Source of the DNA: Balneola sp.
GTDB taxonomy: Bacteria > Bacteroidota > Rhodothermia > Balneolales > Balneolaceae
Assembly (NCBI GenBank): GCA_017640785.1
Contig: JAEPPZ010000001.1
Span: 186,001 to 250,000 of the forward strand
Reading direction: 5' to 3'
Length of the DNA stretch: 64,000 nucleotides
Shown here: one piece after another, positions 36,833-39,213 of the stretch
How positions within the stretch are numbered: the first letter of the stretch is position 1
Layout: every line of letters starts with the position of its first letter
Made by a program: the position numbers and the translations under genes
Notes under the pieces: model-generated
Database searches by the model: none
The model's input: only the letters and a program-made list of their open reading frames with translations
What the model was told of the DNA's origin: nothing

Positions 36833-37078
36833 ATGAAACCCTATATCAAAAATGTTATAACATTACTTTTAAAGCTTTTACTGGCAACTGTAATTGCATC
36901 CATACTAGAATATTTGATCATCACCTTTTTGAGTTCAAAGCCAATTTTAACTTTTAAAGCGCAAATGATATTAGCGGTAGCATATATCGCTTTTCTTTTA
37001 CATATCGGATATAAAATTTGGTGCCTCTTCGACTTAGAAAATCTTTTTTCCAAAAATGGAAAAAACCCACAGAAATAA
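36833..37078 (+). CDS. Small membrane protein, unknown
   Basis: 81 residues with two transmembrane helices (TLLLKLLLATVIASILEYLI and MILAVAYIAFLLHIGYKIW) and a Lys-rich tail. Nothing else is recognised. Its stop lies 23 bases before the permease-EIIA-RCK_C fusion gene on the same strand, so the two are probably co-transcribed; it could be an accessory subunit of that transporter, which is inference. Confidence 0.6.
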   Translation: MKPYIKNVITLLLKLLLATVIASILEYLIITFLSSKPILTFKAQMILAVAYIAFLLHIGYKIWCLFDLENLFSKNGKNPQK

Positions 37079-37101: not shown

Positions 37102-39213
37102 ATGAAATATAAAAAACTAAAAAAAGAACTCGGACTTTGGGATGTATATGCTATCGCTACAGGTGCAATGTTTAGCTCGGGTTTCTTTCTTTTACCCGGC
37201 CTTGCAGCTGCGGAAACCGGCCCTTCTGTATTCCTGGCCTACTTTATTTCAGGACTCATCGTACTTCCCACCATGTTCAGTGTTGCAGAATTGGCGACAG
37301 CTATGCCCAAAGCCGGAGGGACATATTACATCATTGATCGAAGTTTGGGGCCTATAATTGGAACTATCGGAGGTTATGGTTCGTGGCTTGCATTGGTATT
37401 AAAAAGTGCCTTCGCTTTAATTGGAATGGGGGCTTACTTGGCTATTTATTTTGACATTTCAATTGTACCCGTTGCTATAATTCTGACTTTAGTTTTTGGT
37501 GTACTGAATGTAGTTGGGGCAAAAGAAACAACAGCACTCCAAAAAATCTTAGTTGCTACTTTAATTTCAATTATGATTTTCTATATAACACAGGGTGTAT
37601 TTGCTGTTCTTTCACTTGATTTTTTTGAAGTTACTAATCAACAATTTACGCCCTTTTTCACAAATGGAGCTGAAGGTTTTTTTGCTACAGTAGGTATGGT
37701 TTTTGTTTCTTATGCAGGACTTACAAAAGTAGCCAGTATTGCTGAAGAGGTTAAAAATCCGGATAGAAATATTCCATATGGTATGTTTTTATCTATAATT
37801 ACTGCAATCATTGTATATGTAGCTGGTGTATATATCATGGTAGCTTTGTTAGAGCCTTCAGCATTTCGCGAAGACTTAACCCCTGTAGCTTCAGCCGGTA
37901 AAGTATTTATGGATTGGCTACCCAATGACCTGGGTTTACTTTTGGTTGTTGTTGCAGCTGTTGCAGCTTTTGCTTCAACAGGAAATGCAGGGATCATGTC
38001 AGCTTCACGATATCCGCTTGCAATGGCCAGAGATCAATTGATCACCAAAAAATTCTCAAAAATTGGTAAAACCGGCACTCCTTTTTGGGCTATTGTTGCT
38101 ACCGTTTTTCTGATGATATTTTTCCTTGTCACATTCAATGTAGCTGAAGTAGCAAAGCTTGCAAGTGCTTTCCAGCTGTTACTTTTTGCATTACTTAACT
38201 TGTGTGTTATTGTTATGAGAGAAAGCAAAATTGATGGTTATGACCCCGGATTTAATTCTCCTTGGTATCCCTGGGTTCAAATTTCAGGAATAATATTATC
38301 GATTGCTCTTATTCTCGAAATGGGTTTCTTATCAATATTATTTACTCTGGCCGTTTCAATTTTTGCGTTAATCTGGTATTTCTATTACGCTTCTGACAAA
38401 ATAAAACGACACGGTGCTATTTTTCACATTCACGAACGCTTGGGTCGAAGAAAAGACTACGGATTAGAACGTGAAATGAAAGGTATACTTCGTGAAAAAG
38501 GATTGCGAAAAGAAGATCCTTATGAAAGAATAATAAGCAGATCTGTTGTGTTGGACATATCAGGTTCTGACATCAGCTACAGAGATATTATTAAAAAGGC
38601 TTCCGAAAATTTTGCAACTTCTTTTAATATGGATGAAAAACAAATATTCGACTTGTTTTGGGAGAGTCAGGATATAGACACTATTCCGTTCACTCCATCT
38701 ATCGCTTTCAATCATATTAAACTAAAAGGAGATATTTCTTCAGAAATTATATTGGCACGCATTCCAGACTCAGTATTTTTAAAATCGGATGGTTTTGAAT
38801 CACTGAGTAAGGAAAAACAAAAGGAAATTGGAAATCTTCGTGCTATAATCTTTCTAATTAGTTCATCTGAAAAACCCCGTCAACATTTACGTATTCTTGC
38901 ACATTTAGCTGAAATATTTGACGATAATAGATTTATAAAGAGGTGGAAAAAAGCTAAAAATGAAGAAGAAATAAGGGAAATTCTATTACGGGACGACCGG
39001 TTCATCAAACTCACTATTACAGCTGATAACCCCATGGCAGGTAAGCAGATTAAGGAAATAGATCTGCCGGGAGAATGTTTGATCGCAATTATCAATCGAA
39101 ACGGAAAAACTAAAATACCCCACGGTGATACCATTATTCAAGTTAATGATGAACTCGCTTTTATTGGAGAAGAGGAAGACATTCTGTTTCTTAGAAATGA
39201 GTACAATGAATAG
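37102..39213 (+). CDS. APC-family permease fused to a PTS EIIA-like domain and an RCK_C domain
   Basis: 703 residues in three parts. Residues 1-430: APC superfamily transporter (GLWDVYAIATGAMFSSGFFL, the Gly-rich first helix; AGLTKVASIAEEVKNPDRNI). Residues about 480-630: a PTS EIIA type-2-like domain with SISYRDI-like opening, a putative phospho-acceptor His538 in IAFNHIKLKG, and QHLRILAHLAEIFDD with EEEIREILL at its end, in family order. Residues about 634-700: RCK_C/TrkA_C (KLTITADNPMAGKQIKEIDL, GDTIIQVNDELAFIG). Thus transport may be controlled both by phosphorylation and by ligand binding. The substrate is probably an amino acid or cation but is unknown. A small membrane protein gene precedes it. 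Confidence 0.85.
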   Translation: MKYKKLKKELGLWDVYAIATGAMFSSGFFLLPGLAAAETGPSVFLAYFISGLIVLPTMFSVAELATAMPKAGGTYYIIDRSLGPIIGTIGGYGSWLALVLKSAFALIGMGAYLAIYFDISIVPVAIILTLVFGVLNVVGAKETTALQKILVATLISIMIFYITQGVFAVLSLDFFEVTNQQFTPFFTNGAEGFFATVGMVFVSYAGLTKVASIAEEVKNPDRNIPYGMFLSIITAIIVYVAGVYIMVALLEPSAFREDLTPVASAGKVFMDWLPNDLGLLLVVVAAVAAFASTGNAGIMSASRYPLAMARDQLITKKFSKIGKTGTPFWAIVATVFLMIFFLVTFNVAEVAKLASAFQLLLFALLNLCVIVMRESKIDGYDPGFNSPWYPWVQISGIILSIALILEMGFLSILFTLAVSIFALIWYFYYASDKIKRHGAIFHIHERLGRRKDYGLEREMKGILREKGLRKEDPYERIISRSVVLDISGSDISYRDIIKKASENFATSFNMDEKQIFDLFWESQDIDTIPFTPSIAFNHIKLKGDISSEIILARIPDSVFLKSDGFESLSKEKQKEIGNLRAIIFLISSSEKPRQHLRILAHLAEIFDDNRFIKRWKKAKNEEEIREILLRDDRFIKLTITADNPMAGKQIKEIDLPGECLIAIINRNGKTKIPHGDTIIQVNDELAFIGEEEDILFLRNEYNE

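Follow-up and report, generated by a model that had tools for sequence, protein, structure and literature searches.

The window analysed here, a stretch of 64,000 nucleotides of Balneola sp. DNA, encodes a polypeptide of 703 residues that joins an APC transporter, an EIIA type-2-like domain and an RCK_C domain in one chain, each with a Pfam match above its cut-off, as a sequence-only reading of this DNA had proposed. We consider it rather likely that this is an APC-fold transporter with control by the phosphotransferase system (PTS) built into its own chain, a cis version of the control that PtsN exerts on RCK-bearing transporters. Control through a separate PtsN is already known, and the novelty would lie in EIIA-Ntr regulation of transporters having moved into cis and become joined to RCK_C. 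We found no earlier description of the three-domain protein in the open-licence papers that the search covered, and an earlier account is possible.

Architecture of the fusion protein

The reading frame (37102-39213, forward strand) is intact from its ATG at 37102 to its stop codon at 39211-39213, and its parts are given in Table 1. Three Pfam families match above their curated gathering cut-offs: AA_permease_2 at residues 10-404 (E 7.8e-43), PTS_EIIA_2 at residues 494-629 (E 1.4e-11, 45 bits for a gathering score of 27) and TrkA_C at residues 637-695 (E 8.9e-14). The second of these is the EIIA profile match on which the sequence-only reading had staked its proposal. In NCBIfam, no equivalog model reached its cut-off for the fusion protein; APC subfamilies matched below cut-off, TrkA models matched at the C-terminus and PtsN matched weakly.

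Table 1. Features of the fusion gene and of its upstream neighbour (positions in the window)
Feature	Position	Strand	Basis or remark
81-aa membrane protein, candidate partner	36833..37078	+	23 bases before the fusion start codon
APC/LeuT-fold transporter domain, residues 1-440	37102..38421	+	Pfam AA_permease_2; nearest solved structures GkApcT 6f34/5oqt
Linker, residues 441-480	38422..38541	+	Unusually conserved across the 43-homolog alignment
EIIA type-2 (EIIA-Ntr-like) domain, residues ~481-632	38542..38997	+	Pfam, profile, Foldseek
His538 codon	38713..38715	+	Aligns with the phospho-accepting His of PtsN
His595 codon	38884..38886	+	Aligns with the second active-site His of PtsN (HLxxL motif); 40/43 homologs
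RCK_C (TrkA_C) domain, residues ~633-703	38998..39210	+	Pfam, solved relatives, Foldseek

Full-length relatives occur in 32 of the 198 genomes sampled from the phylum. Our alignment holds 43 full-length proteins, the window protein included, which come from many genera, have identical domain order and share 43-98% identity, so that the architecture is neither an assembly artefact nor a chance event. A search with the cytosolic part among 92 genomes within the family gave matches in 58, mostly full length and in open frames near 700 aa. Six linker residues (His442, Arg446, Gly448, Leu455, Glu458 and Lys466) are identical in all 43 homologs. Three APC proteins of about 680 aa (G135:C2, G123:C23 and G077:C9) match the cytosolic profile by their RCK_C part alone and are apparently APC plus RCK_C proteins without EIIA.

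The transporter part resembles GkApcT (6f34, 5oqt) and the CAT branch of the APC family in fold and sequence over residues 4-431 (profile E ~1e-41), and a structure search with the full-length model (pLDDT 81, pTM 0.67) gave 6f34 as best match (TMt 0.84). Several positions in TM3, TM5 and TM6 depart from GkApcT: its TM5 lysine, a residue studied in ApcT and GkApcT for its role in proton coupling, aligns with Leu154, and the Asp-Ala of its TM6 GFDA motif is replaced by Thr208-Lys209. One solved entry among the structure matches is ApcT K158A. Lys101, in TM3 of the fusion, is invariant. By family match (AA_permease_2) and by LeuT/APC fold the membrane part is an APC transporter, and the amino acid or cation substrate suggested for it stays putative.

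An AlphaFold2 model of the cytosolic part (residues 442-703, 38 sequences, mean pLDDT 80, pTM 0.68) superposes best on EIIA-Ntr in Foldseek (1a6j and 2a0j, E ~1e-8 to 1e-9, TMt 0.73-0.80, prob 1.00), followed by RCK_C domains (3jxo, 5f29 and 4ys2, TMt 0.73-0.84). The RCK_C domain announced for the C-terminus is thus backed by both a TrkA_C profile and its fold. The cytoplasmic domains of SLC4/band 3 exchangers also match this model.

Histidines of the EIIA domain

The EIIA part alone found nothing in a sequence search against solved structures, but a family profile of the cytosolic part matched solved PtsN chains (4gqx at 1.2e-11, also 3urr, 2a0j and 1a6j). In the profile alignment His538 falls on the histidine of the IPHG motif and His595 on that of the HLxxL motif, which upholds His538 as a candidate phospho-acceptor. 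The domain is like these PtsN proteins in its fold, its pair of histidines and the presence of an HPr-type donor in the genome. It differs from them in being joined to a transporter, in its remote sequence (15-18% identity to solved EIIA-Ntr), in the Asn that precedes His538 where PtsN usually has Pro, and in that some of its paralogs lack the histidine.

Conservation of His538 among homologs, which the sequence-only reading had expected, was found throughout the protein's own clade and only in part of the wider family. In a tree built from the transporter part only, the window gene belongs to a clade of 20 (SH-aLRT 99), all of which carry both His538 and His595. Within this clade 17 of the 152 EIIA columns are invariant, including both histidines, a coincidence with a chance of about 0.012. 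Across the 43 homologs, position 538 is His in 30, Tyr in nine, Phe in three and Gln in one, whereas position 595 is His in 40 and Asp in three. Position 538 has lost its histidine in an 11-member paralog clade, one sequence of which has His in this column, and in a lineage of three near-identical sequences; the tree, whose deepest lineages retain His538, requires no fewer than three changes. In three genomes (G073, G135 and G187; L046, L043 and L044) a His-bearing copy adjoins in tandem a copy with Tyr or Phe. Since only 30 of 43 homologs keep His538, phosphorylation is probably not universal to the architecture.

The 13 full-architecture homologs with Tyr, Phe or Gln at this position also indicate that the EIIA fold can persist in some other role. 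The domain might be a regulatory or structural module without phosphotransfer, coupling RCK_C to the membrane part as in SLC4 anion exchangers, whose cytoplasmic fold is EIIA-like. This explanation, which we regard as unlikely, draws on the loss of His538 in the tandem paralog clade and one further lineage, while Arg597, Ala603, Phe611 and Trp615 are identical in 43/43 homologs and His595 nearly so; it also draws on the Foldseek matches to SLC4/band 3 and on a weak match of a free PtsN to Band_3_cyto. Yet the window clade, the deepest family lineages and the four cation/proton antiporter (CPA) fusions examined (with A/P-HLR) all retain the histidine, and the clade-invariant columns include Asn537-His538, Arg553 and Gln594-His595-Leu596-Arg597.

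PTS partners, neighbours and kindred fusions

The PTS donors suggested by the sequence-only reading are present in the same genome, which encodes an HPr with LHARP and, adjoining it, EI, together with one free PtsN. A Pfam search of this genome gave no match to EIIC (PF02378) or EIIB (PF02302, PTS_IIB), and we therefore rejected a role in a sugar PTS; judged from its gene content, the PTS of the window genome is regulatory-only. HPr was found in 32/32 genomes with the fusion and in 115/166 of the others (Fisher 3.6e-5), a comparison that is confounded by kinship and uncorrected for it. Three genomes (G163, G054 and G115) have an EIIA_2 match and no HPr match, which may reflect assembly gaps or a PTS-free use of EIIA. 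The free PtsN of the window genome (L061, 7390-7926) has a weak Pfam match to Band_3_cyto (5.7e-6, below cut-off), which agrees with the cytoplasmic domains of SLC4 proteins having an EIIA-like fold.

HPr follows the fusion on the same strand, 11-20 kb downstream, in 16 Balneolaceae genomes and one other. We set aside this linkage with ptsH as functional evidence and regard it as regional gene order, because hisS and variable glycan genes lie in between and the window genome no longer shows the linkage. Relatives outside the close clade of the window gene (L063, L064, L065 and L069, with L070-L073) have the fusion beside hisS and divergent from a gene for a Na_H_Exchanger-TrkA_N antiporter of 613-617 aa, the antiporter domains having been checked in L064 and L065; the fusion of the window genome is located elsewhere. 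The 81-aa membrane protein proposed as a partner proved to be a real and conserved neighbour in only part of the clade: its homologs, which share a conserved Glu in their first hydrophobic stretch, lie directly upstream of the fusion on the same strand in several Balneolaceae genera, at gaps of 23-85 bases, but are missing from many fusion loci.

The EIIA-RCK_C cassette also occurs, with its histidine retained, on an unrelated cation/proton antiporter that has an extra TrkA_N domain. These relatives from the same class (L051-L054, ORFs of 852-886 aa) have the order Na_H_Exchanger-TrkA_N-PTS_EIIA_2-TrkA_C, established by domain scans for L051 and L052 and by alignment for L053 and L054. The motifs FLVSP, HLR and RW are common to the APC and CPA fusions and absent from free PtsN, which supports, at the level of sequence, a single cassette lineage carried by two transporter folds. 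We put forward tentatively a broader possibility, that EIIA-RCK_C is a transferable two-input cassette, reading PTS phosphate and a ligand (possibly c-di-AMP), on the unrelated APC and CPA folds, and that tandem His-bearing and His-less copies are PTS-responsive and PTS-blind versions of one transporter.

The tandem copies of G073, G135 and G187 and the free PtsN of the window genome fit another explanation, that the fused EIIA mainly offers a docking or competing site, by binding HPr or free PtsN or by forming heterodimers with a His-less tandem paralog, and does not switch its own transporter. We find this quite improbable: the window genome has a single fusion copy, which makes such heterodimers impossible there, and two transporter families have the domain covalently joined to RCK_C, which speaks for action in cis.

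Conservation in the 43-protein alignment is highest in the transmembrane part and lowest in EIIA, and among close Balneola relatives dN/dS is ~0.0-0.04 for the transporter, 0-0.04 for RCK_C and 0.09-0.11 for EIIA, which is under purifying selection. That EIIA is a decaying passenger of ordinary multidomain drift, with RCK_C alone regulating, would suit the fastest-changing part of the protein but is very improbable given a dN/dS of ~0.1, the presence of both active-site histidines among the invariant columns and retention in dozens of genomes.

Proposed control in cis and its relation to PtsN

Our preferred reading, PTS control within the transporter's own chain, can be cast as a mechanism. 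A regulatory-only PTS would, through its EI and HPr, phosphorylate the fused EIIA-Ntr-like domain at His538, and the phosphorylation state would alter the packing of EIIA against RCK_C and the membrane part, changing the transport rate. A small ligand or ion bound by RCK_C would serve as a second input, and RCK_C would probably also dimerise the transporter. If the fused domain behaves as E. coli PtsN does towards YcgO and TrkA, the transporter would most likely be restrained by EIIA in its unphosphorylated state.

The RCK_C domain shares its fold, without a three-residue insertion, with S. aureus CpaA (5f29/4ys2) and Thermotoga TrkA (3jxo), and has the PHGDT motif in common with CpaA, whereas RCK_C domains of the KtrA/BusR type need a three-residue insertion to align with it. 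The titles of S. aureus CpaA-type RCK_C entries carry the label CDA, which we take to be c-di-AMP. The window genome encodes a diadenylate cyclase. How an RCK_C domain can bind c-di-AMP is seen in BusR (PMC8517857). For a KtrA/BusR-type c-di-AMP pocket in the fusion, the alignment lengths give no support.

The closest parallel for the control itself is E. coli YcgO, a CPA1 K+/H+ antiporter with RCK_C and CorC, likewise a transporter with a cytosolic RCK_C that is set by EIIA-Ntr. Unphosphorylated PtsN binds the C-terminal region of YcgO, putatively its CorC domain, and inhibits the antiporter, perhaps by keeping the RCK domain from activating it (PMC11808508). TrkA and KdpD are further targets of PtsN, and there is still debate, with models that disagree, over how it controls potassium and nutrient transport in trans (PMC13104625). 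In YcgO the PtsN is separate and acts on the putative CorC domain, whereas in the fusion EIIA lies in cis between the APC transporter and RCK_C.

The sequence-only reading had the PTS cascade and a small ligand both gating one transporter. The domains, His538, EI and HPr that this calls for are present, but His538 is not kept family-wide, and we regard the overall control model as plausible and only partly tested. As a natural fusion, the protein fixes the stoichiometry and geometry of EIIA and transporter, so that what EIIA phosphorylation does to an RCK-coupled transporter would be measurable within one polypeptide, with the His-less tandem paralogs as natural controls.
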